Below, piece after piece: positions 15,646 to 53,907 of a DNA stretch of 56,888 nt. Positions within the stretch are counted from its first letter, which is position 1, and each line of letters starts with the position of its first letter. The position numbers and the translations under genes are program-made. The stretch is taken from the IMG/VR virus record IMGVR_UViG_3300023292_000011, positions 1 through 56,888 of that record; one strand, 5' to 3'. Source of the DNA: a virus. A model generated the notes under the pieces. The model ran no database searches. It saw nothing but the letters and a program-made list of their open reading frames with translations, and was not told where the DNA came from.

Positions 15646-18600
15646 ATGGCTTCATCAAGATATGTATATGATAAATTAATGGCTAATGAACCTGCATTTA
15701 AAGCATTAACAGAACAGGAAAGACAGACTGCTGCTGATGATATAGCAAACCAAAGAACTACACAAGAAGAGTCTCCTGAACCTGTACAGGGTGGTTTAAG
15801 TAGTATTCAAAGAAATCAATCTTTGCCTTCTTTAAGTGAATCTATATCTTTACCAGAGTTATCACAACCTCAACAGCCACAACAACAGCAAGTACAACCT
15901 GATAATGAAACAAACTCTATATTTATGAATGGTCAGAAGACTGTATTTGGCGGTGATGAAACTGCTGTAAAGAATGTTATTGATTACGATGATACAATAG
16001 ACTTTGTGGATAAGTTCAATCCATTAAAAGAGAAAGGTATAGCTCCTGAAAAGGCCGCTGTATCTGCTTTTGCTTATGGAGCAATAAAGAATAAGATACA
16101 GAATGTTTCTCTCAAAAAACTTTTACAGACAGGTAGAGAAACTTTCAAACAGAGACTTAAAACATTAGTTCCAACTGCAACAGATAATGTAGTTGATAAT
16201 ATGACCAACAATGCTTTTAGAAGAGTTGCAAAGGGTGATGTGACATTGAATGATTTTTTTGTAGAAGCAGGACAGACTAACTCTGTAAATGCTCCTACAA
16301 TGGAATCAGTACAAGTAGATGCTTCACAAGGCCCTTCTGCATCAACAGCAAGAGAAGGTAAAGATATTGCTGAGTTCATATATAAGAATGTAAAAGCAGA
16401 TGAAAGTGATAGAAAGTTTGCTTCTAAAAACTATTATGAATACTTGATGTTCCAAGATGAAAACAATCTTATTAATGAAAATGAAAAAGTAAAGCTTGAT
16501 TACATAAATACTAAAATGGATATGTCACTTGATATAGCAGATGATAATGAATATGAAATATCAAAGAAGAGTTTGATGAATGATATATTCAATATTATAC
16601 CTGAGAAGTCTATGCAATCTTTTGAATATCGTGGTGATGTAAGAGAGAGTAAAATTGAACAAGTTTCTGATAATGTTGAAGTTAAGGATGAAGAATCGTT
16701 AGATACTGACCAATATTTTGATGTCAATAATATGGATCAATATGATGATGCTACAATAGCACAAGCAATGTCAGTTCTTGGCAAGAGAGCATCTTCTATA
16801 CTTGGGGATTTTCTTCCTGCTAAAATAGGTTCTACGATAAAAGGTAAAGATGTAAAACTTGAAGATGTTGGAGCGATAGATAAATTTATTGCCCGTAATA
16901 TGAAAGAGGGAGCTACAACAAGAACTCTTACACCTGAAGAAAGAAAGAAAGTAGTTATACCATTACCTTATGTAGATGATATAACTCTTGGAACAGTAGA
17001 AGATGCTGCTGAAAGTCTTGCTTTTTCTTTATCTAATTTACTTGTAACAGGTAGTGCAGCTTTAGTTGGTTCAGCAATAGGAGCAGGAGAAGGTTCTCTT
17101 GTGAGTCCTGGTGTTGGAACTGCTATTGGAGCAGGTCTTGGCCTTGTAGGTGGTATTGCTTCTACTAAGAGACAAATAGAAAATGATTTTCTTAGAGATA
17201 TGAGAGCAAGATTTTTAGAAGCAAATCCTGGTCCTATAACTCCTGAGTTAAAAGAAAAATGGAATAAAACTAAAAAACTTTTAGATAAACACGCTGAGTT
17301 TAGAGGTTGGTGGGAAGCAGGGCCTGAAACAGTTGGAAATCTTTTAACAATGGGAATGTTCAGACTTCCTGTTGGAAAAGCCATAGGAGCGATTCCTGGA
17401 CTTAAAAGTGATACAGCTAAACTTATAGGCAGTGCATTAATAAAAACAAGCTTTGCACAGAGTACAGAATTACTTGGAGAAACAGTAACAGAAGTAAAGC
17501 AATCTGAAGATGATGCAAAACTTGGATTAATAAAGAAGCCTCTTACATATAATGAAGCTTTCAAAAGAGTTGCACCAGGAACTATAATTCAAGGATTACT
17601 TTCAGCAAGCGGCGGTAAGGTTACTACAGAATTAGAATCTAAAATAAAAAAATACTTTCCTAAAAAAGATAAAAATAAAACTAATCAAACTGATAATGAA
17701 AAACTTGACAAACTACAAGCACAAGAAGCTGACAGAGGTGTAGAAGTAGACCTTACTGAACAAACTAAGCCAGAAGTAATAGCAGAAGATATTGATAATC
17801 TTGATGCTTTATTTGCAGAAGCAGAAGCAACATTTGAGCCTGCTGAAACAGAAACTAAACCTGAAGTAGAACCTGTTGTTGACAAAGTGCAACAAAAACC
17901 TGTAATTGAACCTATACAAGAAAAAATACAATCAGAAACAAAAATAGAATCTGTTAAAGAAGATATTAATGTAAAAGAAAAACCTCTTGTTGAAACAGTT
18001 AAAGACAAAGTTGAACCTAAGAAAAAAGAAATTATAAAACCTAATGAAAAACAAATAAAAATTATTAATATATTGAAGAAAACAACATCATTATTTAAAC
18101 AAAATTTTTTATCCTCAACACCAGAAGCTATAAAAAAATATATTGATAGTTTAAAAGATTCATTAATGGTTGGCGAAGAATTAAATATTAAAAATGTTGG
18201 AGTAAATACTGATAAATTAAAAACTTTTATGAGTAATCATATTAAAAAAATTATTAAAAAAACTGGTGTAAGTGATGGCGATATTAATATTATATATAAA
18301 AGACTTACAGATGAAATAAATAAAGCAGGAAATGAACTTGTTCCTATAAAAAATTTATTAGATAATGTTATAAAAAAAGCGTCTAATGAAATAAGAACTG
18401 GAACAGTACAAGAAAACATAAATAGAGAAGCAAGTTTAAGTTTAAAACAAAATAAAAAAAAATTAAAATATTACCAAGGAGAAATTGACGCTAATTTAAA
18501 TAGAACTAAAGAATATAAAAAAGAAATAAAAGAATATAAAAAAAGAAAAGAAAATTATAAAGGGCAATGGGATAGTTCAATAAAATTAAGAGAAAGATTT

Positions 18601-21600
18601 ATAAAAGAAAACAAAAATAGATTAGTTGAATATAAAGAAAAAATAGAAACATTTAATAAAAAAATTAAAGAATTAAATATTGAAACAGGTAAAATTATAG
18701 GGAAAACTAATTTTGATATAGAATCTAAAAAAGAAGTAGAACCAGTACATGAAACAGCGATTTCAAGAGCAATGAAGTTAGCAAAAGAAAAGAAAGCTAA
18801 CAAGAAACCTCTCGTTGAAGCTGTGAAGACTAAAGTAGAAGCTAAAAAACAAAAGACTATAATCACACCACAAAAACAAGAAGTACAGCCAGAAGCTAAA
18901 ATAGAGCCTGTTAAAGTTAAACCTACACTCAAAGAAACAGTTAAGCAGAAAGTGGCAGTAAAGAAAGCTGATAAATATACTTTTGATATTCCAAAAGATA
19001 AGTTTTCAATATATAAAGTAAACACTCCTAAAGGTGTTAAGTATGCTGTGAAATTGCCAAAAGAATTATCACAAAGTTTCAGTGATCCGTTTTATGATAC
19101 TATTGAAATTGCTGAAAAAGAACAAACATTTGAAATAGAAAAAGAAAAGCGTAATATTGCTTTTAATAAAAAACAAGAAATAATTAAAACAGAAGAAACA
19201 ATAAAGAAAAAAGAACAAGAAAATGTAGATGGCTTTGATAAAGATATGCCTAAAATGCGCAGAGGTCAAGTTATAAAAGCATTAAATAAAATGTTTAATT
19301 TTGATGGCAAACTAATGACAAGAAAAGAAAAGGTTAGAGAACTTGTAAATGACAATGCTAAAATAAGCGTAGAAGAGGTTGATAAAATTCAGCCTATGAC
19401 AAGGTTGGCATCTAACAGAGCGAATCAAAGAGAGCAAGACGCTCATGAACAGAGAATAAAAGATTCAGGTAAGAAAAAAATATATTATGTAGGTGGATAT
19501 GATTTAGGTAAGACTGCTTATGACTATGCTAATCATCTGATGGAGAAAAAAACATCTGTTGGTGATATGAGTGAAAAAAACGTTACATCAAAAGGTAATT
19601 TAATAGCAGGTGAATACTATGGTAAGAACTTTCCTGAAAGTTTTATATCTAAATTAAAAGAACTGTTATCAGGTGTTCTTCCTAAAACTCCAAAGAAAAA
19701 AGAAGATAAAATAATAATTCCAGGACTTGCTAAAGTTATTGATATAGATGTTACTCCAATAAAGAAAAAAATTAAAAAGTCAAATAATCCTATTGAAGAA
19801 ATAATAATTCCTTTTGCAGATAAAACAAGAGAAAAAATTCAATATTCAGGAGTGTTCTTCGATAAAAAGAATCAAAGAATACAAGCAACCAATGGTGGCA
19901 TTTTCATTACTGTAGAAGCAGATGTAAAAGAAGGTGGCATTTTTGAAATAGATAAAAATAATAAAAAACTAACAGGTAAAAAATTAAATGCTGAGTTCCC
20001 TTATGCATCAGAAATAATTGACAATTCAAGCAATCAAAAATATAAACAAATGAAAACAGACGATCTTTTAGATAAAGCAAGAGGTATGTCTGCTGTTGAA
20101 AAACTTTTACAAAATAAAGACGATGTGTTAGCTAAAATAAAACAAGGTGATTTAGAACTTCGTATAAATCCAAATAATTTGCAAAAGGCATTAGAAACTT
20201 TTAAAAAGTTAGGAATAGATGAAATAGAAGTTTCAATTAAAGAAGCCTATGAACCTATGAGAATAAGAGACGCTAACAATAAAAAAAATATAGCTTTTAT
20301 AATGCCTATTAGAAATTCATTCGCTAAGGTTACTACTTCATTTGACTTGAATAATCCTACTGGTAAACAAGACACTAAGCTACAAGCAGTTGACAAAGAT
20401 ATAGATGATACTTGGAATAAGTTAAATAAAGAAAATAATAAAAGATTAGGTATGAACCCTTTGCCTTCATTAAAAGCAACAGTGCTTACAACAAAACTTG
20501 TTTATAATTATGCTAAAAAAGGAATGTATATATTTGAAGATATAATTAATGATTTAAAAAATAAATTTGGAGTTGTGTCAGAAAAAATAAAAAATAATAT
20601 CAAAAATATTTTAAGTAAAAGTCCTATAAAAACTAAAAGTGGAACTAAAATAAAAAGATATAAAAATATAGTAGGAAAAGAAATTGGTGGTAAAATTTAT
20701 GTTCATAAAAAATATGCAGATAAAGTAATTCCAAAACAATTATTAAATAATGCTAAAAAAATATTAAATGAATCAAATCCAGAATTTAAATATAACGCTA
20801 TATCTTATGATAAAAAAACTGATACAGTAAGATTTGATGAAGCCCCTGATTTTAACTCTGCAACTGAACCAACTATAGGTAATTATATTTCAATTACACA
20901 AAATAAAGAAGTTTCAAAAGGAAGCAGTAATTCTATATGGCATCATAAGTGGTTATGGGTAACTGATGATTATAACGGATTTAATGTTTATGACAGTAAA
21001 AATAGAAGCAGATATTGGCTTTCTAAAATAAATGGAAAAGCAAGTGGTTCTAAAACAATATTTGAACAACAATTAAAAGCTAATGACGAAAATAAAGAAA
21101 ATGAAATTTTTACAGATACTTTTTCAGAACAAGCAGGAAAAACAGCGAGACCATGGAAAGTAACAAAAACATACAAAGCGGCTTTAGAAATAATAAAAGA
21201 TGGAGATAATGTTCTTGATTATGGTTCAGGACCATTTCAAAAAGTTAAATCCTCTGTAAAGTCTAAAGGTGGAAAATATTTTGCATTTGATAGATATGGG
21301 AATATAGGAGATATTTCTTTTTTAAAAAACAAAGATGTTGTAATGGGAAGTAATGTTTTAAATACTGCTGTATATGCAGATAATCCAACAAAAGCATATC
21401 ATGAAGCACTTAACGAAATGGCAAGTGCATTAAAACCAAATGGAACATTAGTTGTAAATATGCCTTCGTCTGGCCCACAGGCAACATGGATGAATTCTAT
21501 AGGTCTTGAAAATGATTTAAAAAATATTTTTAAAAATGTAAAAAGAAAAGGTGAAGTTGTTTTTGCATCTGGATTAAAAGAAAAATCAATAAGAAATATT

Positions 21601-24600
21601 AATATTGACAAAGAAATAGAAAATGCTTGGAAAGAAGTTAAGAGGGCACAAGGTAAAATACTTGGCGGTTTAGTACCAATGAACGCACCGCTTGTTAAAG
21701 CTTCTGTTAAGCTCATTAAAGCTTGCTTTAAAAAAGGTATATATAAACTACAAGACATAACTAAAAGTGTTCTCAGTAGAGTTACAGCAGATAAAAGAAA
21801 CGATTATATAAAAGGATTAAAGCAAGCAATGAATCAGCTCATAGATGATCCTAACACTGATACATCTAAAGTTGGTATGACTAAGGATGAAGTTAATGCT
21901 TATGATCCTGATAAAGTTGTAGAGCCTATTAAGATTGATACAAAAGAAATAAAGAAATCTGAAGTTAAGAAAACTGAAAAGATTGAAACTAAACCTACTG
22001 GAAATATAGAAGATAACAGAGTGTTTAAGTCTCTTGAAAACTCAAGACAGCTTTCTAAAATAAAAAGAAAAATAACTGCAAAGAAAATTTTTAAATCATT
22101 AAAAAGAAACTTAATTGATGAATCAGGCAATTTAAAAGATAAACTACTTGAAACTCCATTAGGTAAAAAAGCAGTAAAATATCAAGAGTTAATGGCAGGT
22201 GCTACTTCAAAGGCTGAACTTCAAATAGATAAAGCTCACAACGATATATATAAAGATCTTACGAAAAAAGAAAAGACAAATTATTTAGATACTTATGTTT
22301 TTGCTAAAAGGTCTATTGAAATATTGAAAAGAAAACCTAATTTTACAGTACAAGCAAATGCTTCCATAGCAGAACTTGAAGCTTTAATAGATGAAATACC
22401 AGATAATGTTATGAAGAAAATAGAGTCTAAGGCAAGTATTTATTGGAAGACACTTGATAGTCAATTAAATCAATTAAAAGAAGCAGGACTTATTACAGAA
22501 AAAGGAATTAAAAGATTAAAAGAAACAGGTGAATATTATTCTCCAAGAGAAGTTCTTGATTATATAGATCCTGACGGAACTTTTTATGATGGCAATGGAA
22601 AAATAACTATTCCTGATAGTGGTATAAAAAAACTTACTGATGAAGGTAGTTTAAGACTTGTAGAAACTGACACAGCATATTTGCTCACATCTGTAATATC
22701 AAGAACTCAAGCAAGAATATCTAAAAATAAAGCAAATGTAGCATTATATGAAATGGCAAAATCTAATCCTGATAACGAAATAGTTACTATTGCTAAAAAA
22801 GATGAAGACCTTCAACCTGGATTTGAAAAGATAAGTGTTATGATAGATGGTAATAAAGAACAATTAATTATGCCATCTGACTTAGCTGTTGAGTGGGTTA
22901 AAAGTAATCCTATATTAAATTCTTTTCAAGCCGAAGTATTAAGTTTAGCAACAGGAACTAAAATTTTAAAAACAATGGCTACTGGTATAAATCCTGAATT
23001 TGTAATTACAAACATGCCAAGAGATATTGCACATATATTTTTATCCACAAATGAATTTTCTCCAACATCTCCTATTGCCGCTGCTCAAATGGCAAAAAGA
23101 CTTTCAGAAGTATTTTCAGATGCAATAAAAAGAAAAGGTCGCTATATTGATTTTATAAACGAAGGTGGTGGAATGGGTTTTCTTACACATCAAGGTAGAA
23201 TTTTTGAAAGAAATATAAACTCAGAAATATCTAAAATCCAAGATGTATTAGGCTATTCAGGAGAAACTTCAGAAATACTTACAAGATTAGCATTAAGAGA
23301 ACAAGCACTTATAAATATTGCAAAAGAAAAAGGTGTTAAAATTTCAGAGCTTTCATTAGAAGATAGAGAAGAAGCAACATGGATAGCAAGAGGCTATCTT
23401 GATTTCTCTCAAGGTGGTAGAATGGCGAAAGCTTTAAACAGTGGCCTTCCATATATAAATGCAAGGATTCAAGGCACAAGAGGTATTTTTAGGGCTTTTA
23501 AAGAAAGACCTGTTCAAACTACTTATAAAGCGGTACAGATTGGAATTGTAAGTTCTCTTCTTTATATGTTGAATTTAGGAATAGATGAAGATGAATATGA
23601 TAAAATATCTCCTTCTGATAAAAGAAATTATTTCAATATATTAGTACCTAACAGCGATTATAAAGATAAAGAAGGAAACAGTAGAAAAGTTTATGTAAAA
23701 ATAGCAAAAGACCAAGGACAAAGAACTATAAGTTATATATTTGAAGCATTGACCGCGAAAGCGTTAGGAAAAGAAATTGATGTAAACCAAATAGTTGAAA
23801 CAATTAAAGACCTTTCACCATATATACCTTCTCAAGATTTACCTCCATTCGTAGATGCTTTTATTTCTTATGGTTCAAATATAGATTTTTGGAGAGGTCA
23901 ACCTATTTGGAAAAAAGAAAAAGTAGAAGCAGGTGCAGAACAAACTTCTTATACACATCCTTTTTTCAGAGCTATAGGAGATAAAACAAACTTGTCTCCT
24001 AATAGATTAAAAGTTGCTCTTGAACAAGTTTTCACATCAGGAAATATTTATACATCAGCAGCAGATTTAGCTTGGAATAAACTTTTCGGGAAAGACAAAA
24101 TAGATGATACTGTAATTCAGAATAAAATATTAAACTTTCCTTTTATACGCAAATTTATGAAAAAGACTGATTCTTATAATAAATATCAAAAGAAAATAGA
24201 TGAAGCTAAAATTAAAGCTAATACAAAAAAATATAGAAACACACTTAAATTAGATGATATGATTCAAGATTATTTCAATGAAAGAAAAACTAAAGAAGAG
24301 GTAAATACTTTTATAGAAAACCAAGAGACTCCTTTAGAAACAAAAAGATTGAAAAGAAGGTTTTCTGATAGTGAAAAGTTAAAAGATATTCCTGATAGAA
24401 GATGGTGGTTTGGAATTAAAGAACTCTCTCCTGAAATAAAAGCACAACAGTTTTGGTTAAGATGGTCTCAATCAAATGATGCTGAAAAGAAACAGTTAAA
24501 AGAAACATTAGATAAATTTCCTGGAATGAAGTCTAAAAGGTTTCTTAAAGCTTTAAACGCAAGAACTGAAAGAGATGAAAAATTTGAACAGGCTTCTAAA

Positions 24601-24648
24601 AAATCTGGTAGAATTAGAACAACAAGGCGAAGAGTGAAAAGAAGATAA
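15646..24648 (+). CDS. Giant (3000-residue) polyvalent, probably ejected, virion protein
   Basis: Modular. Gln/Pro-rich start (~35-90). Gly-rich hydrophobic segment (~455-506, GSAIGAG...GTAIGAGLGLVGG) that could insert in membranes. Lys/Glu/Pro linker repeats (KPLVExVKxKVExKK). An AT-rich helical insertion (~795-1035). A segment with a clamp-like look (GVFFDKKNQRIQATNGGIFI, ~1405). A second AT-rich insertion containing a Rossmann methyltransferase-like unit (VLDYGSGP from 1856, then VMGSNVLNT and LKPNGTLVVNMP). The C-terminal ~2440-2800 resembles LPD38 of podoviral large polyvalent proteins (NPEFVITNMPRDI). Very basic tail. Large polyvalent proteins are known to enter the host with the DNA. 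Only the C-terminal domain and methyltransferase fold are suggested with any confidence. Confidence 0.8.
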   Translation: MASSRYVYDKLMANEPAFKALTEQERQTAADDIANQRTTQEESPEPVQGGLSSIQRNQSLPSLSESISLPELSQPQQPQQQQVQPDNETNSIFMNGQKTVFGGDETAVKNVIDYDDTIDFVDKFNPLKEKGIAPEKAAVSAFAYGAIKNKIQNVSLKKLLQTGRETFKQRLKTLVPTATDNVVDNMTNNAFRRVAKGDVTLNDFFVEAGQTNSVNAPTMESVQVDASQGPSASTAREGKDIAEFIYKNVKADESDRKFASKNYYEYLMFQDENNLINENEKVKLDYINTKMDMSLDIADDNEYEISKKSLMNDIFNIIPEKSMQSFEYRGDVRESKIEQVSDNVEVKDEESLDTDQYFDVNNMDQYDDATIAQAMSVLGKRASSILGDFLPAKIGSTIKGKDVKLEDVGAIDKFIARNMKEGATTRTLTPEERKKVVIPLPYVDDITLGTVEDAAESLAFSLSNLLVTGSAALVGSAIGAGEGSLVSPGVGTAIGAGLGLVGGIASTKRQIENDFLRDMRARFLEANPGPITPELKEKWNKTKKLLDKHAEFRGWWEAGPETVGNLLTMGMFRLPVGKAIGAIPGLKSDTAKLIGSALIKTSFAQSTELLGETVTEVKQSEDDAKLGLIKKPLTYNEAFKRVAPGTIIQGLLSASGGKVTTELESKIKKYFPKKDKNKTNQTDNEKLDKLQAQEADRGVEVDLTEQTKPEVIAEDIDNLDALFAEAEATFEPAETETKPEVEPVVDKVQQKPVIEPIQEKIQSETKIESVKEDINVKEKPLVETVKDKVEPKKKEIIKPNEKQIKIINILKKTTSLFKQNFLSSTPEAIKKYIDSLKDSLMVGEELNIKNVGVNTDKLKTFMSNHIKKIIKKTGVSDGDINIIYKRLTDEINKAGNELVPIKNLLDNVIKKASNEIRTGTVQENINREASLSLKQNKKKLKYYQGEIDANLNRTKEYKKEIKEYKKRKENYKGQWDSSIKLRERFIKENKNRLVEYKEKIETFNKKIKELNIETGKIIGKTNFDIESKKEVEPVHETAISRAMKLAKEKKANKKPLVEAVKTKVEAKKQKTIITPQKQEVQPEAKIEPVKVKPTLKETVKQKVAVKKADKYTFDIPKDKFSIYKVNTPKGVKYAVKLPKELSQSFSDPFYDTIEIAEKEQTFEIEKEKRNIAFNKKQEIIKTEETIKKKEQENVDGFDKDMPKMRRGQVIKALNKMFNFDGKLMTRKEKVRELVNDNAKISVEEVDKIQPMTRLASNRANQREQDAHEQRIKDSGKKKIYYVGGYDLGKTAYDYANHLMEKKTSVGDMSEKNVTSKGNLIAGEYYGKNFPESFISKLKELLSGVLPKTPKKKEDKIIIPGLAKVIDIDVTPIKKKIKKSNNPIEEIIIPFADKTREKIQYSGVFFDKKNQRIQATNGGIFITVEADVKEGGIFEIDKNNKKLTGKKLNAEFPYASEIIDNSSNQKYKQMKTDDLLDKARGMSAVEKLLQNKDDVLAKIKQGDLELRINPNNLQKALETFKKLGIDEIEVSIKEAYEPMRIRDANNKKNIAFIMPIRNSFAKVTTSFDLNNPTGKQDTKLQAVDKDIDDTWNKLNKENNKRLGMNPLPSLKATVLTTKLVYNYAKKGMYIFEDIINDLKNKFGVVSEKIKNNIKNILSKSPIKTKSGTKIKRYKNIVGKEIGGKIYVHKKYADKVIPKQLLNNAKKILNESNPEFKYNAISYDKKTDTVRFDEAPDFNSATEPTIGNYISITQNKEVSKGSSNSIWHHKWLWVTDDYNGFNVYDSKNRSRYWLSKINGKASGSKTIFEQQLKANDENKENEIFTDTFSEQAGKTARPWKVTKTYKAALEIIKDGDNVLDYGSGPFQKVKSSVKSKGGKYFAFDRYGNIGDISFLKNKDVVMGSNVLNTAVYADNPTKAYHEALNEMASALKPNGTLVVNMPSSGPQATWMNSIGLENDLKNIFKNVKRKGEVVFASGLKEKSIRNINIDKEIENAWKEVKRAQGKILGGLVPMNAPLVKASVKLIKACFKKGIYKLQDITKSVLSRVTADKRNDYIKGLKQAMNQLIDDPNTDTSKVGMTKDEVNAYDPDKVVEPIKIDTKEIKKSEVKKTEKIETKPTGNIEDNRVFKSLENSRQLSKIKRKITAKKIFKSLKRNLIDESGNLKDKLLETPLGKKAVKYQELMAGATSKAELQIDKAHNDIYKDLTKKEKTNYLDTYVFAKRSIEILKRKPNFTVQANASIAELEALIDEIPDNVMKKIESKASIYWKTLDSQLNQLKEAGLITEKGIKRLKETGEYYSPREVLDYIDPDGTFYDGNGKITIPDSGIKKLTDEGSLRLVETDTAYLLTSVISRTQARISKNKANVALYEMAKSNPDNEIVTIAKKDEDLQPGFEKISVMIDGNKEQLIMPSDLAVEWVKSNPILNSFQAEVLSLATGTKILKTMATGINPEFVITNMPRDIAHIFLSTNEFSPTSPIAAAQMAKRLSEVFSDAIKRKGRYIDFINEGGGMGFLTHQGRIFERNINSEISKIQDVLGYSGETSEILTRLALREQALINIAKEKGVKISELSLEDREEATWIARGYLDFSQGGRMAKALNSGLPYINARIQGTRGIFRAFKERPVQTTYKAVQIGIVSSLLYMLNLGIDEDEYDKISPSDKRNYFNILVPNSDYKDKEGNSRKVYVKIAKDQGQRTISYIFEALTAKALGKEIDVNQIVETIKDLSPYIPSQDLPPFVDAFISYGSNIDFWRGQPIWKKEKVEAGAEQTSYTHPFFRAIGDKTNLSPNRLKVALEQVFTSGNIYTSAADLAWNKLFGKDKIDDTVIQNKILNFPFIRKFMKKTDSYNKYQKKIDEAKIKANTKKYRNTLKLDDMIQDYFNERKTKEEVNTFIENQETPLETKRLKRRFSDSEKLKDIPDRRWWFGIKELSPEIKAQQFWLRWSQSNDAEKKQLKETLDKFPGMKSKRFLKALNARTERDEKFEQASKKSGRIRTTRRRVKRR
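17876..17896. repeat. 21-bp element with dyad symmetry, second copy
   Basis: Identical over 21 bases to 686-706 (TTGTTG-N8-CAACAA). Here it encodes part of a VVDKVQQK linker in the giant protein, so it may be coincidental codon use in a repeat or a second binding site for the same DNA-binding protein. Confidence 0.45.
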
Positions 24649-47979: not shown

Positions 47980-48562
47980 GAAGGAAAACATATATAATGG
48001 CGTAGAGTTTGATTCACAAGAAGAGATTATGTTTTATATATGGCTTGTAGAAGCTGAGTTGAATGGCTTTATATTTCCTAAGAGTGTTGTGTATCATCCT
48101 GATCCTTTTCTATTGCAAGATAAGATTTCCGCTCCTTCCCTTAAAAGAATGAAAATTAAAAATAAGATAGTAATGAAACATTTATTGCATCCCATTACTT
48201 ATCAGGCTGATTTTAAAGTTACCTTTACTAAAAAGTTTCAAGATACTTTTATAAATCATGGATTATATTTTCCTGCTAAAAAAAATAAAGGAAAGATAGT
48301 TGAGGATCTTTGTGTATATTTTGATGTAAAGGGTGGTGTTGGTGCTAATTTGAACAGAAATAATTCTTCTGCTTATACTTTTATGCCTAAAATTAAGTGG
48401 CTATGGAACAAATACAATATATATATAAATAAACTTGTTCCAAAAAAATATTTTTCTAAGACTTTCTGTCCTGAACTGCTTTATTATTGCAAAAATAGAA
48501 AAGTGGCAACAGTAAGGTCTGCATTTAAACGGTGTAAGCTACTTAAAGACATTATTAAGTAA
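47957..48562 (+). CDS. DUF1064-like PD-(D/E)XK nuclease (junction-resolvase candidate)
   Basis: 201 residues. FDSQEEIMFYIWLVEAE (~18-34), YQADFKVTF (catalytic Asp, ~83) and VYFDVKGG (D-x-K, ~122) follow the DUF1064/endonuclease I order E...D...E/D-x-K, with Asp as the second acid. Such proteins resolve branched DNA. GAGGA RBS upstream. Last gene of the plus-strand module, followed by a terminator. Confidence 0.68.
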   Translation: MVKVKTVKKENIYNGVEFDSQEEIMFYIWLVEAELNGFIFPKSVVYHPDPFLLQDKISAPSLKRMKIKNKIVMKHLLHPITYQADFKVTFTKKFQDTFINHGLYFPAKKNKGKIVEDLCVYFDVKGGVGANLNRNNSSAYTFMPKIKWLWNKYNIYINKLVPKKYFSKTFCPELLYYCKNRKVATVRSAFKRCKLLKDIIK

Positions 48563-48563
48563 A

Positions 48564-48602
48564 GAAATAGCCCTCTGAAGCGTATCAGGGGGCTATTTTT
48601 AT
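48564..48602. terminator. Bidirectional terminator between convergent modules
   Basis: AAATAGCCCTCTGA pairs with TCAGGGGGCTATTT (one G-U), with AGCGTA/T loop and a T tract on the plus strand. The minus strand has AATAG then TT only, so termination is best for the plus operon ending at 48562. Confidence 0.85.
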
Positions 48603-48630
48603 GTTTACGATGATTCTTGTTAGTTATAAT

Positions 48631-48870
48631 TTACTTTCTCCTTGAAAAGTATAAGCGTCTCTCTACTGGCTTAGTTTTAGGTTTCCACTTACCAGGTATC
48701 CATCTACCGAACTGACACTTAGTACATCTTAGGTCTGTAAAACTCTTGCTTGTTATAAAAGTATGCCCACAGTGAGCACAATGGTATTTTCTGCGTTCCA
48801 CTACCTCTAAAAGCGTAAAATTCTTATTCATCAACACCATATCATCATCAGTCAATTTTGATCCATCCAT
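48631..48870 (-). CDS. Zinc-ribbon protein
   Basis: 79 residues from ATG 48870 (AAAGGA 9 nt upstream). YHCAHCGHTF...RCTKCQFGRWIPG is a CxxC...CxxC ribbon (~29-56), and the end is basic (KPKTKPVERRLYFSRRK). Last gene of the minus-strand operon. Confidence 0.65.
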   Translation of the reverse strand: MDGSKLTDDDMVLMNKNFTLLEVVERRKYHCAHCGHTFITSKSFTDLRCTKCQFGRWIPGKWKPKTKPVERRLYFSRRK

Positions 48871-48871
48871 T

Positions 48872-49144
48872 TTAATTATTCCTTTCAAATTTTCGTCTCT
48901 TATCTTTTTCGTAATAGTAATCGTTTCTTATGCACGCCCTGATATATTCGGAGTTTGTAAGTTTCTTTACCTTAACAAGATACTTCAGCATTTCAATCTC
49001 TTCTCTGTACAGATTGAAACCTTTTACTTTTACTTTCAGCTTCGGGTCTTTGGCAGGTCTGCCTTTTGTCTGTGTACCTTTGTATAAAGGATTATCCTTT
49101 GGCATAACTGGTTCTTTTATGTGTGATCTCTTTATGTAGCCTAT
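48872..49144 (-). CDS. RHH/MobC-like small basic protein, unusual start
   Basis: 90 residues if begun at ATA 49144, which lies 8 nt after a perfect GGGAGG. Alternatives are GTG 49153 (on the Shine-Dalgarno sequence) and ATG 49105 (no RBS). Features: GRPAKDPKLKVKVKGFNLYREEIEMLKYLVKVKKLTNSEYIRACI, where strand (VKVKGF), helix, turn and helix look like a ribbon-helix-helix DNA-binding unit. Charged tail. Confidence 0.55.
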   Translation of the reverse strand: MGYIKRSHIKEPVMPKDNPLYKGTQTKGRPAKDPKLKVKVKGFNLYREEIEMLKYLVKVKKLTNSEYIRACIRNDYYYEKDKRRKFERNN

Positions 49145-49145
49145 T

Positions 49146-49289
49146 TTAATCACCTCCCTTGTTATCGTCTGGCGTGTCTTCTTTGTCGTCTCCTGTGTAG
49201 GCTTCTTCTGGTTCTTCAATGAATGATTTGAAAAAACTATCCTTCAGGGTTTCAGACACTAAACAATTTTTGATAATACAATCTTTCAT
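49146..49289 (-). CDS. 47-residue acidic protein
   Basis: GAAAGGAAAG RBS. MKDCIIKNCLVSETLKDSFF, then an acidic tail (EEPEEAYTGDDKEDTPDD). Start overlaps the previous stop (ATGA). Function unknown. Confidence 0.55.
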   Translation of the reverse strand: MKDCIIKNCLVSETLKDSFFKSFIEEPEEAYTGDDKEDTPDDNKGGD

Positions 49290-49453
49290 TTTTTATCTTT
49301 CCTTTCATTTGCATCATAGGCAATATCAATTTCCATTTTCTTCCGGCAGGTTTTACACATACCATGAGAAAAAATATTGTCCTTGGACGGTTTCATAATG
49401 AATCCACAGTAAGAACATTTAAAGCCTATTTCTTGACCTTTATTATTCAGCAT
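49286..49453 (-). CDS. 55-residue zinc-ribbon protein downstream of ribozyme A
   Basis: AAGAAGG RBS 6 nt before ATG 49453. FKCSYCGFIMKPS and CKTCRKK give a CxxC...CxxC site. It is the first gene after the twister-like RNA at 49473-49533, so ribozyme cleavage would give it a new mRNA 5' end about 50 nt upstream. Confidence 0.6.
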   Translation of the reverse strand: MLNNKGQEIGFKCSYCGFIMKPSKDNIFSHGMCKTCRKKMEIDIAYDANERKDKK

Positions 49454-49472
49454 GGTTTGCCTTCTTTCTTTA

Positions 49473-49533
49473 TCCAGGACTTGAGACCTGAACTGTCCTT
49501 TAATATCGGATGTATAGTCCGATACCTCTCAGG
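49473..49533 (-). ncRNA. Twister-like self-cleaving ribozyme A
   Basis: Minus strand, 5' to 3': P2' CCU, then GAGAG, P1 hairpin GUAUCGG/CCGAUAU (7 bp), U-A-A, P2 AGG, a 4-nt joiner, P4 UUCAGG/CCUGGA with loop UCUCAAGU. Loop CUC can pair with GAG of GAGAG (pseudoknot T2). Order and conserved bases (UAA, CAAG, GA-GNG) match the twister core in its circularly permuted form. Expected cut is between U (49502) and A (49501). It begins 2 bases past a stop codon. Confidence 0.7.
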
Positions 49534-49535
49534 GA

Positions 49536-49751
49536 TTAATCAAATATTCTCATTTCCCATGATTCTTTATTTGGATATATCAATTTAAAAGCTTTATTTG
49601 TTTTAAACTCTGCAATCATGTTATTTGCTATTTGCTTTAACTCTTCGTCTGTCTTTGCTGAAAAACTTTTACCTTGTTGCCTACCTTCATAAACTAAAAT
49701 AGCATCCTTTGTTATATCTCCTATTACGACTCCTCTTACTGATTCAATCAT
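49536..49751 (-). CDS. Unknown small protein upstream of ribozyme A
   Basis: 71 residues from ATG 49751 (AGAGGAAA upstream; the in-frame ATG at 49787 is rejected). Starts MIESVRGVVIGDITKDAILVYEG, a small beta opening, then a helix. Its stop codon abuts the ribozyme. ATGA overlap with the preceding small membrane ORF. Confidence 0.6.
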   Translation of the reverse strand: MIESVRGVVIGDITKDAILVYEGRQQGKSFSAKTDEELKQIANNMIAEFKTNKAFKLIYPNKESWEMRIFD

Positions 49752-49846
49752 TTTTTTCCTCTTTCGTTCCTTAATATTAAATACCATGTTATGCAGCTTG
49801 TAACGCTGTAAACTATTGCACCAAGTATAATGTATTTATCTGACAT
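49748..49846 (-). CDS. 32-residue membrane microprotein
   Basis: MSDKYIILGAIVYSVTSCITWYLILRNERGKK in outline: one transmembrane helix (~6-25) with a basic end. Starts within the last codons of the previous gene and ends in an ATGA overlap with the next. RBS weak, so translation is probably coupled. Confidence 0.45.
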   Translation of the reverse strand: MSDKYIILGAIVYSVTSCITWYLILRNERGKK

Positions 49847-49985
49847 ACTCAAACTCGCTTCTGGTTCGGATTACAAGCTTTCCAGTATGTTTAAGTGCTA
49901 TGGTGTAAATAGTTCCTCTCTGGCTTATGATTGTGCCTTGTGTGCAGTCTTTTAAATAAACTTGTTTCCCTATGTTGAATCGCAT
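49836..49985 (-). CDS. 49-residue unknown protein
   Basis: RBS GGAAAGGA. MRFNIGKQVYLKDCTQGTIIS, followed by TIYTIALKHTGKLVIRTRSEF: a small beta barrel-like pattern as in short SH3-type proteins. Function unknown. Confidence 0.55.
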   Translation of the reverse strand: MRFNIGKQVYLKDCTQGTIISQRGTIYTIALKHTGKLVIRTRSEFEYVR

Positions 49986-50056
49986 TGTTATTAATTCCTT
50001 TCCATTATTTCAAGAGCCCAACTGTTTCAAGTGTTGCCATGATATCCCCTCTCAGT

Positions 50057-50275
50057 CTAATAAAAACAACTGTGATAATCGTCAATTCCGAAGTCGACTA
50101 TTTCAGCACATATTATGTCTGTGTGGTCTGTTGCTTCGTCTGTGATTGCATATCCGTAAGTTTCTTTGATAATGCAAAATTCCTCTATGTCATAATTTTC
50201 TTTTGCTTCCGCATCGTTTGCCATTTCAGAAAGCTTTTTTAGTGCTTTGTTGTAATCTTCAAATTTTAACATCAT
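50057..50275 (-). CDS. Unknown acidic small protein
   Basis: 72 residues, AAGGGAG RBS 10 nt before ATG 50275 (7 before the second ATG at 50272). Helical start (FEDYNKALKKLSEMANDAEA), strand-rich end (YGYAITDEATDHTDIICAEIVDFG). Follows a terminator, so expression needs read-through or its own promoter. Confidence 0.6.
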   Translation of the reverse strand: MMLKFEDYNKALKKLSEMANDAEAKENYDIEEFCIIKETYGYAITDEATDHTDIICAEIVDFGIDDYHSCFY

Positions 50276-50311
50276 GTTTTATACTCTCCCTTATATTTAT
50301 TTGGTTGTAAT

Positions 50312-50352
50312 AAAAAAACCCGATATAACATCAATTAAGACATTATATCGGG
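50312..50352 (-). terminator. Intrinsic terminator on the minus strand
   Basis: CCCGATATAA (50319-50328) and TTATATCGGG (50343-50352) form a perfect 10-bp stem. On the minus strand it is followed by seven T. It ends transcripts from gene 50408-50977. Confidence 0.88.
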
Positions 50353-50407
50353 CTAACCGAATAATTTGATTTAAGGTTCAAATTAGCAAAAACCTTTTAA
50401 TTGTTTT

Positions 50408-50977
50408 TTAGAAACTTGCAAGCTTAATTTCTTGCCAGTCTCCATTTTCAGTCCAGTCTTCCAGAACTATCCAGCCGACGTTAGAAAGTTTGACGGCTTT
50501 AAAAAACCATGAATCACCATCACCACACTGGTTTTCACCAAGCTCCAAGGTTGCTCCTTTTTTTGCTTGTGTTAAGGCCTCAAAGAAGGCCTGAAATCCC
50601 TCTTTTACTTCTTCTTCGGTTGGGATGTCATCCTCTATGTGATTAGACCCATCGGTATTAGCGGAAGGGATATAAGAAACACCATCCAAAATATTCCAAG
50701 CACAACCACCACCTGCACTTGTTTCGTGATTCCAAGGTGCTGGGGCAGTTTGTATCCTTGAAATAAGTTTTTTTTCTGAAAGGATCTGAATATCTCCAAG
50801 ATTGAACTGTGGGTTGAAATCTTTGTGAGAGGATTTAAATGTTTCCACAAAGAAGTTTTTTAACTCCTTGTGGATTTTCACGGTCGTTAAACCGCTTTTG
50901 TAAACTATCTTTGTTAAAAAATCATTTACTTGCCTGGTCTCTTGGTTTCTTCTTGCTTTTAATGTTGTAAAGTTCAT
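50408..50977 (-). CDS. Unknown minus-strand protein
   Basis: 189 residues. Basic N-terminal half, acidic middle (HIEDDIPTEEEVKEGFQAFFEAL), Gly-rich turns (SAGGGCAWN, GENQCGDGDSWFFKAV) and a Trp-rich beta end. No family recognised. AGGGAG RBS after a hairpin leader. Confidence 0.62.
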   Translation of the reverse strand: MNFTTLKARRNQETRQVNDFLTKIVYKSGLTTVKIHKELKNFFVETFKSSHKDFNPQFNLGDIQILSEKKLISRIQTAPAPWNHETSAGGGCAWNILDGVSYIPSANTDGSNHIEDDIPTEEEVKEGFQAFFEALTQAKKGATLELGENQCGDGDSWFFKAVKLSNVGWIVLEDWTENGDWQEIKLASF

Positions 50978-51057
50978 ATTAATTCTCCCTTTTTCGATTC
51001 TTATCCAGAACCGCCCACAAGAATTTAAGAGCTTGTTTTCTCTTTGGTTTCCTATTA

Positions 51058-51093
51058 GCCCAATTAAGGGCTTTCGACCGATTACCGTTCGGC
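51058..51093 (-). promoter_or_regulatory. Double-hairpin leader of gene 50408-50977
   Basis: On the minus strand GCCGA-ACGGTAA-TCGGT is followed by CGAAA and then GCCC-TTAATT-GGGC. Sits in the 130-nt gap between two genes. Resembles part of a small ribozyme (the CGAAA after a stem), but the hammerhead CUGANGA is absent. Confidence 0.4.
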
Positions 51094-51107
51094 TCTCTTC
51101 AAACAGG

Positions 51108-51509
51108 TTAGTTAATTAAGAAGTCAACACCATGATTTTTAGCGGTTTGGATTATTTTATGCGCCATAAAAGCAAACCAAGAATTTACCATATTATCTTT
51201 TTGTTTTTCGGTATAGCTTTTATCGTCTGTGAAGTTATGGAGCTTTTTGCAGGTTTCGAAAATCTGGTAATAAGTATAATCAAGATTAAAAGCTGTAGGA
51301 AGGCCGGAAAGCCATTCCTTTAAAACATTTTCAATGCTGCCATATCTTTTAAGATGTGCTGGAAAAACATATTCAGTGCAAAAGCGATCTTTTAAAGTTT
51401 GAAGTTTTTCGGTTTCTGTCATGTTTTTTGGATATGTTTCTATATCGTCCATACACTCAAAAATATATGTTTCCATTCTGCCATTAAATTCTTTTGTATT
51501 TGTTTTCAT
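51108..51509 (-). CDS. Unknown helical protein
   Basis: 133 residues, GGGAGG RBS. Mostly helical with many Tyr/Phe/Lys (ETEKLQTLKDRFCTEYVFPAHLKRYG, NVLKEWLSGLPTAFNLDYTYYQIFETC). No motif recognised. Confidence 0.62.
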   Translation of the reverse strand: MKTNTKEFNGRMETYIFECMDDIETYPKNMTETEKLQTLKDRFCTEYVFPAHLKRYGSIENVLKEWLSGLPTAFNLDYTYYQIFETCKKLHNFTDDKSYTEKQKDNMVNSWFAFMAHKIIQTAKNHGVDFLIN

Positions 51510-51540
51510 AATTAATACCTCCCAGTATTGTTATTATTGT

Positions 51541-51648
51541 TTAACCTGTCTCATCAGTGCCAAGCAGTAGTTTAATTTCGTCAATATGCGCTATTTCTAC
51601 AATAAAATTGTAGATGTATAATCCTATTCTGCTTTTAAAAGTTTTCAT
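51541..51648 (-). CDS. 35-residue possible microprotein
   Basis: MKTFKSRIGLYIYNFIVEIA plus a polar tail. Begins 14 bp inside the end of the preceding gene, so could be translated by coupling; no independent RBS. Amphipathic or membrane-associated helix. Confidence 0.4.
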   Translation of the reverse strand: MKTFKSRIGLYIYNFIVEIAHIDEIKLLLGTDETG

Positions 51649-52006
51649 AATTTGCGACTGTATGTATAATATTTGATATCATTTCTGTTGTGAAAATAAA
51701 TTGATATTTCTTTGTCCCACATTGATATCTTTCAATTTTGGATATATCCCAGCTCGATTTTTTTCTAATAAGAGTGAATTGTGTACTTTCAGGAGTACCT
51801 TTATATCTCCCCGAAAATTTTTGTGCTTCAGGATCTACATTTACTTTTGTATCAACCCAGTACTTTTTCGGTGAATACTGGGAAAGATATTTCTCGATTT
51901 TTTTGATTTCTGTTAAAATATCTTGATAATTAATATTTCTCGATCTGGATCTGCTTTGGCATTTTGCCAATTCTGCTGTTATTTTCTTTTCATTGTTAAT
52001 ATTCAT
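51635..52006 (-). CDS. Unknown protein downstream of ribozyme B
   Basis: 123 residues from ATG 52006 (GGGAGG 8 nt upstream). Basic (AKCQSRSRSRNINYQDILTEIKKIEKYL), strand-rich second half. Its mRNA 5' end would be created by cleavage of the twister-like RNA at 52043-52105. Confidence 0.62.
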   Translation of the reverse strand: MNINNEKKITAELAKCQSRSRSRNINYQDILTEIKKIEKYLSQYSPKKYWVDTKVNVDPEAQKFSGRYKGTPESTQFTLIRKKSSWDISKIERYQCGTKKYQFIFTTEMISNIIHTVANYENF

Positions 52007-52042
52007 TGTCAATACCTCCCAGTATTACTTTAAGAATGTTAC

Positions 52043-52105
52043 GCAGGGCTTGAGACCTGCTAAGCCCTTTAATAAGAGAGCAATTAAACCCTCTTATCTC
52101 TCAGG
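52043..52105 (-). ncRNA. Twister-like self-cleaving ribozyme B
   Basis: Minus strand: P2' CCU, GAGAG, P1 AUAAGAG/CUCUUAU (7 bp), U-A-A, P2 AGG, joiner, P4 GCAGG/CCUGC with loop UCUCAAGC. Same unpaired bases as ribozyme A, but P1 differs at most positions with compensating changes and P4 also covaries, so structure is conserved. Expected cut between U (52071) and A (52070). Begins just after the stop of gene 52108-52677. Confidence 0.72.
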
Positions 52106-52107
52106 AT

Positions 52108-52677
52108 TTAAGCAGCTTCCCAGAGTTCTTCTATTTGCCAACCTTCAAGCGTTCCACCTGTTTTTATTTTATCGTCCTTTGTGTAAACATCATAATAAAT
52201 ATTATTTAAGCTATAATCTTTTACTATATCTTCAATAATATTTAATTGATTTCGTTTAATATTATCGTTTATTCTTACTGTTAAATCTCCATCTGATATG
52301 TGAACTGTAATTATTTGTTCGTTGTACCAAGTATCAATATCTATTATTCTGTGATCATCACCAGGTATTGACACCATAGAACCATCGGAAAATATAAATC
52401 CATGATCGCCAGCATGACCAGTAAAACAATTATAATCTTCTTTTCTTTTTTCAAGGTATTCGTTAAAATTTGAATCTTCTATAAATGCAGAATCTGATAA
52501 AGGGCTTTCTTCTTCTTCTTTATACCATGTACAAAACTCTTCAAAATTACAACATACGATTTCAAAAGCTTTTTGTTCTGCTATTGTTTCAAAACTTTCT
52601 GACCATGTTATAAATTCTTGTTCTAAGTTTTCGTATCTCTCAGTTATATCTTTTATTTCTTCTTGTAAAAAACTCAT
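52108..52677 (-). CDS. Unknown acidic protein upstream of ribozyme B
   Basis: 189 residues, very acidic. N-terminal coiled-coil-like helix (LQEEIKDITERYENLEQEFITW). A central segment (HAGDHGFIFSDGSMVSIPGDDHRIIDI) recalls small phage domains with a 'H..G.fi..DG....d..Hr.i' pattern. Function unknown. AGGAGG RBS. Confidence 0.62.
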   Translation of the reverse strand: MSFLQEEIKDITERYENLEQEFITWSESFETIAEQKAFEIVCCNFEEFCTWYKEEEESPLSDSAFIEDSNFNEYLEKRKEDYNCFTGHAGDHGFIFSDGSMVSIPGDDHRIIDIDTWYNEQIITVHISDGDLTVRINDNIKRNQLNIIEDIVKDYSLNNIYYDVYTKDDKIKTGGTLEGWQIEELWEAA

Positions 52678-52689
52678 GTTAATACCTCC

Positions 52690-52893
52690 TTATATTTTTG
52701 ATACTAATTCTTTTAATTCTTTTAATGTTTTAGCTTTAATTTCACCGTCGAAAGCTGTGTATATATCATCTCTAACTTTTATTATTTTATTTGTTTTATA
52801 ATCAAAGTCTTTTTCAAAATTGTATAATGCTATGCACTTAAATTCACATCCATTTGAATCTTTAGTTATAAATGTTTTTGTTGTCATATTCAT
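52690..52893 (-). CDS. First gene of the minus-strand operon, unknown
   Basis: 67 residues, GAAAGGA RBS. Small beta protein (TFITKDSNGCEFKCIALYN...DIYTAFDGEIKAKTLKELKELV). Directly behind a consensus promoter, so likely expressed very early and strongly; small host-takeover proteins often occupy such places (inference). Confidence 0.62.
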   Translation of the reverse strand: MNMTTKTFITKDSNGCEFKCIALYNFEKDFDYKTNKIIKVRDDIYTAFDGEIKAKTLKELKELVSKI

Positions 52894-52943
52894 TTTGTTA
52901 TTCCTTTCATTTATTTGTCTTACATTAAACCCCGATTTCCTTA

Positions 52944-52971
52944 ATTATACTCCTATATCGTATCATGTCAA
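52944..52971 (-). promoter_or_regulatory. Consensus sigma70 promoter of the minus-strand operon
   Basis: On the minus strand: TTGACA (52966-52971), 16-bp spacer, TATAAT (52944-52949). Both hexamers are perfect. TGTAAGACA, also found at the 54724 promoter, follows at 52916-52924 in the untranslated leader. Confidence 0.88.
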
Positions 52972-53089
52972 TGGGTTATTTAATTATTTTTCATTTTATT
53001 TATATTTAATTTGTACTTGCCAGTAATACCAGTACATCCAAGCGTTATATATATACATCTATATTATATATAACTCATAGGTAACGGTA

Positions 53090-53129
53090 AGTAACGGTGG
53101 GTAACGATTGGTAACGGTAGTGGTCATGT
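53090..53129. repeat. Four 10-bp iterons (GTAACGGTRR type)
   Basis: gtaacggtaa, gtaacggtgg, gtaacgattg and gtaacggtag follow each other without gaps from 53091. One helical turn apart, ~120 bp upstream of the minus-strand promoter and beside an AT-rich tract. Candidate protein-binding array: operator, second origin or packaging signal. Confidence 0.7.
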
Positions 53130-53907
53130 GTATATTGTCACTTTTATAGCCATATTGCCAATAAATTCTCATAATGATACACTTTGTTTATATATATCTC
53201 CATATCTCATATATCCCCTGAACCAGTTCAATATAATATATATCGTCTGCAATATATCATCATATCCCTACATCATCACACAGTAGCTTTACAGGCTCTT
53301 ATATATAGTATTATATATATATCTATATATAGGAAGATATCGGCATCATGCTTCAATCACGATTCATTGTGTTGCTATATGCTGTCATCATTATTATATA
53401 TATCATTATTCAATCATTGCAGAAATATATCAGCATATCCACATATAGAGCTATATCATACAGGAGAATAGCATATACCACCCCGATATATATTATCATC
53501 ATGATCATTATATATAGAGATAGATGTTTATATTATGTTGTTTGCCTGGTCATTATGTTAGATCATGTTTTTTCAAGGATTTATTCCTGGCCATGGTAGG
53601 GTAGGGGATGGATTTCAGAATTTATTTATTAGATACTATATACATCCCTATGATTATATATGGGGTAAATTACTCGTAGGAATAGGCCCCTATGATTATA
53701 TATTACCTTATATTTTCTGTAGAATGATGTTTCATAAATCATTATCCGCCATGTTAGTTGTCATATTAATCATTATTCATAAAAAATATAAAAAAATTAA
53801 AAAAAATAAAGCATTGAAAACCGTTGATATCACTTAGATATAAAAATTATTTTAAAAAATTAAAAAAAAAATTAAAATAAAATGAATGGAATGAATGTAA
53901 AAACAGT
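53130..53907. other. Long AT-rich, low-complexity non-coding region
   Basis: Rich in TATATA steps and CATATC/ATATCC words. Open frames on the plus strand here (53184-53471, 53348-53599, 53565-53837) lack RBSs and encode only Ile/Tyr/Ser-rich repeats, so I do not call them genes. CCCTATGATTATATAT occurs at 53646 and 53688, exactly 42 bp (four turns) apart. Possibly a DNA-unwinding or packaging region. Confidence 0.6.

Follow-up and report, generated by a model that had tools for sequence, protein, structure and literature searches.

A type-P5 twister ribozyme between two cistrons of a tailed phage, and a recurrent stop-ribozyme-RBS cassette that may divide operon mRNA

In a gap between two small genes of a tailed phage, we identified a type-P5 twister ribozyme (ribozyme A; minus strand, 49533-49475) that probably cuts its own transcript at U49502/A49501, between the cistrons, as one instance of a widespread phage cassette that divides operon mRNA. 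The fold is observed, as is its position, locked between a stop codon and an RBS; cleavage and division of the message are inferred, without cleavage, RNA-end or expression data. Coordinates refer to the window, that is, the whole 56,888-nt stretch of DNA that was analyzed (IMG/VR record IMGVR_UViG_3300023292_000011), which encodes a terminase, a portal/head-tail adaptor, an internal virion protein and a primase-helicase.

Ribozyme A reads CCTGAGAGGTATCGGACTATACATCCGATATTAAAGGACAGTTCAGGTCTCAAGTCCTG. When the whole window was compared with 4227 Rfam families, RF02684 (Twister-P5) matched 49475-49533 on the minus strand at 45.8 bits, where the gathering score is 37.6 (E = 2.2e-6). The preliminary description of this DNA, which had called the element twister-like and proposed a search with the twister models as a check, is supported by this match. 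It had also claimed that all twister core parts occur in order on the minus strand, and they do: the 5' strand of P2 (CCU, 49533-49531); GA (49530-49529) followed by GAG (49528-49526), a strand of the T1 pseudoknot; the closed P1 (arms 49525-49518 and 49510-49503); U49502-A49501-A49500, which sits between P1 and the 3' strand of P2 (AGG, 49499-49497); and P4 (CAGG, 49490-49487, with CCUG, 49478-49475), whose loop is UCUCAAGU. This is the Twister-P5 order of P2 5' strand, GA-xyz, closed P1, U-A-A, P2 3' strand and P4 with a CAAG loop, and the circular permutation with P1 closed that had been recognized earlier is Rfam type P5 according to the RF02684 alignment. The proposed loop pairing was likewise found, with GAG 49528-49526 facing CUC 49485-49483 in the P4 loop to form T1; T2 joins AC (49496-49495) to GU (49480-49479). 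One detail needed correction: P1 has 8 bp, one of them G-U, and not 7 bp. Folding alone recovered P1, P2 and P4 with a modest z of -1.8 relative to shuffled sequences, so the identity of ribozyme A rests on the covariance model and on the covariation of T1, T2 and P2 in its relatives, not on stability.

Both catalytic positions are intact, with G49530 aligned to the active-site guanine and A49501 to the cleavage-site adenine of RF02684; the mapping of residues to G45/G48 and A7/A6 of solved twisters (PMC5408937) is our own. The same review gives U-A as the twister scissile step, with which the cut site named in the preliminary description, U49502/A49501 on the minus strand, agrees by alignment. 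Cleavage there would leave a leader of 48 nt from A49501 to the ATG at 49453. Judged by its sequence, ribozyme A is a genuine type-P5 twister motif; its self-cleavage is an inference for which there are no RNA-end or in vitro data.

The window holds a second copy, ribozyme B (minus strand, 52105-52044), which also exceeds the RF02684 gathering score (42.6 bits). Its predicted cut, U52071/A52070, would give a leader of 64 nt to the ATG at 52006. The two copies share T1 (GAG/CUC) and P2 (CCU/AGG), and T2 is AC/GU in A and GC/GC in B, a compensatory A-U versus G-C difference. Their P1 arms are wholly different in sequence, and the stems pair in both. Besides A and B, no ribozyme in the window reached an Rfam gathering score. 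Scanned with permissive settings, 48550-53300 yielded no further ribozyme, and no other ribozyme class was over the cut-off in the window operons.

In both copies the ribozyme fills the stop-to-RBS gap on the coding strand. The intercistronic placement claimed for A holds: it begins 2 nt past the TAA (49538-49536) of a 70-aa cistron (MIESVRG...; minus strand, 49748-49536) that has no confident family in PHROGs or Pfam, and it ends 21 nt before the ATG at 49453 of a 55-aa cistron (minus strand, 49453-49286; SD AAGG at 49463-49460). The latter encodes a small CxxC...CxxC zinc-ribbon-like protein with a weak match to PHROGs 11273 (E 0.002) and zinc-ribbon matches under the Pfam cut-offs. Ribozyme B follows, by 2 nt, the TAA of a 189-aa cistron of unknown function (minus strand, 52677-52108), for which no homologues were found in IMG/VR, and ends 37 nt ahead of the ATG at 52006 of a 123-aa cistron, also of unknown function (minus strand, 52006-51635; SD GGGAGG at 52020-52015). 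A consensus scan, which is not proof of function, placed a sigma-70-like promoter (TTGACA-16-TATAAT, 12/12; minus strand, 52971-52944) ahead of the operon with B. Between B and A lies a strong terminator-like hairpin of 16 pairs followed by a T run (minus strand, 50354-50317). The two copies therefore probably serve separate operons and lie on two predicted transcripts, barring read-through by RNA polymerase, and any serial use of the ribozyme within the window is limited, with only two copies that are probably not on the same transcript.

Three other features of the window deserve mention. In the B operon, one pair of cistrons is separated by a 130-nt gap (minus strand, 51107-50978) that folds with a z of -2.3 against shuffled sequences, matches no Rfam family and is possibly another RNA element. 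Several B-operon cistrons are preceded by RBS stretches that resemble each other (AATACTGGGAGGTATT or a variant of it, minus strand), at 52679-52699, 52009-52029 and 51512-51532; these belong to repeat families D4 and D10. On the plus strand, 15646-24648 is a single ORF of 3000 aa, which is exceptionally long given the size of the phage.

We looked for relatives by scanning IMG/VR with two DNA patterns taken from the ribozyme alone and rescoring about 100 contigs in full with RF02684. Matches were present in 38/50 records of a first set and 49/50 of a second, and absent from 14 control genomes. Since the contigs were picked by ribozyme patterns, these figures are not an unbiased estimate of prevalence; sites within one contig or array are related, and two contigs (G004 and G039) carry the same loci.

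The position of these matches relative to genes was highly regular. We defined a strict layout as a match on the coding strand with a stop codon within about 8 nt upstream and an SD-preceded start codon 10-45 nt after it. This layout was met by 108/155 RF02684 matches (70%) from 37 contigs, compared with 1.0% of random positions, and 30 of the 37 contigs had at least one such match. Across the first set (n=90), the upstream stop codon was offset from the ribozyme 5' end by a median of 0 nt (IQR -2 to +2), with the following start codon 29 nt past the 3' end (IQR 27-31); 78/90 lay between two such genes, compared with 12.5% at random and with 6/90 for the opposite strand. A separate set (n=65) behaved similarly, with 53/65 between genes (15% at random, and 13/65 for the opposite strand) and medians of 0 and 26 nt. 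Genes in the relatives were called with a simple caller, which accounts for some of the 30% of matches that fail the strict layout, others having a truly different context; closeness to stop codons and RBSs is also partly expected from dense phage genomes. In three Desulfosporosinus loci (L125, L130, L132) a type-P5 twister immediately follows a hairpin that resembles an intrinsic terminator and precedes an RBS; this is a 5'-leader setting, unlike the stop-RBS cassette.

Several contigs carried twisters in long series, with 20 matches in one (G034), 15 in G073, 14 in G025, 10 in G006, nine in G049, and seven each in G013, G074 and G080. Consecutive twisters in arrays were a median of 558 nt apart, or about one to two small genes. 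The richest contig (loci L086 and L087) runs gene after gene, each followed by one twister, such that nearly every gene of the run is separated from the next; in G025 (L088), the genes come in groups of about one to five, each closed by a single twister. Ten array loci contained no other ribozyme class at the Rfam gathering score. Most genes are of unknown function. We noted genes of PHROG 421 and PHROG 1221 in or beside the arrays of both G034 (L086/L087) and G025 (L088), so that some arrays may mark one phage lineage.

The preliminary description had raised the idea that ribozymes act as mRNA scissors inside a phage operon. The comparative data, with 155 matches, their strict layout and arrays of up to 20, lend this strong support, with three qualifications: cleavage is an inference, the two window copies probably belong to two operons instead of one, and the ribozyme class was already known.

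Related twister copies were also seen in genome contigs of Clostridia, Desulfosporosinus and Ruminococcus among them, and of other bacterial assemblies, which does not imply a prophage location. Among cultured phages, blastn with a twister consensus returned short matches only, all with E of at least 0.04; the top two, in Acidovorax ACP17 and Noxifer, lie within protein genes and were not taken as twisters. Array regions had no match in INPHARED at the sensitivity of that search.

Covariation among the relatives was extensive. T1 was complementary in 90/90 sequences (first set plus window copies), whereas shuffled partners reached at most 57 of 86 unique sequences, and eight pair combinations occurred (GGG/CCC, GAG/CUC, GUG/CAC, GGA/UCC, AGG/CCU, UGG/CCA, CGG/CCG and one G-U version). 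In the second set 59/63 were complementary, with shuffles at 40 or fewer. T2 was complementary in 149/151 (shuffle maximum 115) and P2 in 135/140 (shuffle maximum 100), and 127 distinct 5' arms of P1 form stems. In six contigs (G063, G098, G090, G061, G100 and G075) CAAC replaces CAAG in the L4 loop, in most cases with GG in L2 to match it and the T2 pair swapped. To our knowledge the RF02684 model carries no pseudoknots, and its structure line for the window matches displays none, so complementarity in T1 and T2 is not imposed by the scoring. Some of these bases were fixed by the search patterns, though only in the copies that recruited each contig. Covariation of P2 and of both pseudoknots is, as far as alignments can tell, the mark of selection on the RNA fold.

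The cassette, consisting of a stop codon, a twister, about 29 nt and a start codon, occupies selected gaps of phage operons and, in some phages, nearly every gap over several kilobases. We infer that cleavage soon after transcription splits the operon mRNA into cistron-sized messages. In the 5' piece the stop codon would be retained and the P1 hairpin, bearing a 2',3'-cyclic phosphate, would form the end; the 3' piece would begin with a 5'-OH, followed by the P4 hairpin, and have a leader of about 55 nt (median over all loci; A 48 nt, B 64 nt). Each cistron would thus acquire uniform ends, and its decay and translation would be uncoupled from those of its neighbors. RNA with a 5'-OH end withstands decay of the kind that begins at a 5' monophosphate, and 3' exonucleases are impeded where an RNA ends in a hairpin with a cyclic phosphate; both 5'-monophosphate-dependent and 3' exonuclease decay would probably be reduced. 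Since the ribozyme directly follows or overlaps the stop codon, its folding should be blocked briefly by a ribosome that terminates there, but not by one that initiates on the next gene. Extending this to the arrays, we lean toward the view that diverse tailed phages dice whole operons into single-gene messages with standard, ribozyme-made ends, with no enzyme and with about 20 twisters at most, and that in some hosts the pieces might circularize.

The same layout could serve a stand-alone regulator, in which the cut exposes ends to decay and lowers one neighbor, perhaps only when upstream translation stops and the 5' half is no longer covered by a terminating ribosome. A stop codon at the very 5' end of the ribozyme (median offset 0) means that translation could in principle gate folding; against it, one ribozyme per gene with a strong RBS after each would be a strange design for shutting down an entire operon, and the new ends, with their P1 and P4 hairpins, seem shielded, which is itself an inference. 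Given the protective effect of 5'-OH ends and of hairpin and cyclic-phosphate ends, we favor insulation over down-regulation, which we consider unlikely without dismissing it. A switch in which cleavage unmasks the downstream RBS is suggested by the distance of 20-40 nt from ribozyme to start codon, and it finds very little support: with pseudoknots left out, predicted SD accessibility rose by a median of only +0.014 over 143 loci, and from 0.528 to 0.531 for A and from 0.603 to 0.607 for B. As predicted accessibility is barely altered, RBS exposure by cutting is disfavored.

Cleavage, if it occurs, would produce 5'-OH and 2',3'-cyclic-phosphate ends, and pieces between successive ribozymes could then be joined into circular mRNAs, either through host RtcB or through a hybrid twister assembled from neighboring halves. 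T1-compatible halves were present in 80/106 adjacent pairs; chance order gives a mean of 76.7, and no selection for or against cross-compatible neighbors was detectable in these 106 pairs. In the window a terminator separates A from B. A search of 24 records detected no phage-encoded RtcB (9/14 controls were positive), and the phages thus seem to lack a rejoining enzyme of the RtcB family. A parallel scan for single-subunit RNA polymerase (0/24 phage records) was uninformative as its control was silent too. With no phage RtcB and half compatibility at chance level, circular products are possible but not indicated, and as a general account we give them only a slim chance. That the element is a degenerate or accidental twister look-alike without activity seems the least credible reading of all; single-sequence folding only modestly better than shuffled (z -1.8, -2.3) would permit it, while the E of 2.2e-6, the second copy, the intact core positions and the covariation over about 150 matches argue otherwise. 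We also rejected a retrozyme-like mobile element, since copies are single between different genes, their P1 arms differ and the stop/RBS spacing is fixed; this rejection rests on layout, without a targeted search for a reverse transcriptase or for duplicated target sites.

Division of operon mRNA by the cassette thus remains our preferred reading, and the repeated stop-ribozyme-RBS arrangement gives twister a concrete, testable function, the cutting of polycistronic phage mRNA. If this holds, phage messages would carry 5'-OH and cyclic-phosphate termini, and these can escape standard RNA-seq preparation.

The type-P5 twister ribozyme is reportedly due to Roth et al. in 2014. The window copies share with RF02684 the core sequence and secondary structure, T1 and T2, the U-A cut step and the P1-closed permutation, and differ in P2, which is CCU/AGG as opposed to the Rfam consensus GCA/UGC. 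In synthetic biology, RiboJ insulators and ribozyme-assisted polycistronic vectors place engineered ribozymes between cistrons or before an RBS. Like the proposed cassettes, such parts set a self-cleaving ribozyme before an RBS to give a uniform, separate message per gene; they are man-made, whereas the phage cassettes, if they work as proposed, would be a natural equivalent occupying nearly all of the gap, and a natural parallel to ribozyme insulators.

Thousands of twister ribozymes are known; what they do in biology is described as largely speculative in a 2016 review (PMC5408937), and according to a 2023 paper it is still not understood why twister is associated with phage genes (PMC10085705). 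The passages on twister consulted in these two papers do not mention serial stop-to-RBS placement. The ribozyme itself is a member of a known family, and the apparently undescribed part is its serial intercistronic use: no description of twisters in consecutive intercistronic gaps was found in the literature searched, from which the 2014/2015 discovery papers were missing, so earlier notice cannot be ruled out.

The best-documented phage ribozymes that we found are the HDV-like theta ribozymes of gut phages, which sit at tRNA 3' ends (PMC10879173). They too are small, self-cleaving, found in Caudoviricetes and positioned so that a phage transcript is processed at a specific gene boundary, but they have another fold and act at tRNA 3' ends rather than between protein cistrons. 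Bacterial hammerhead and twister ribozymes associated with Mu-like phages, summarized in PMC10085705, are reported to be enriched near certain genes for reasons unknown; these also lie close to phage genes and are often clustered near other self-cleaving ribozymes. The Mu-like case is thus reported as an enrichment by gene association, whereas the phages described here carry twister as a fixed cassette in successive gaps.
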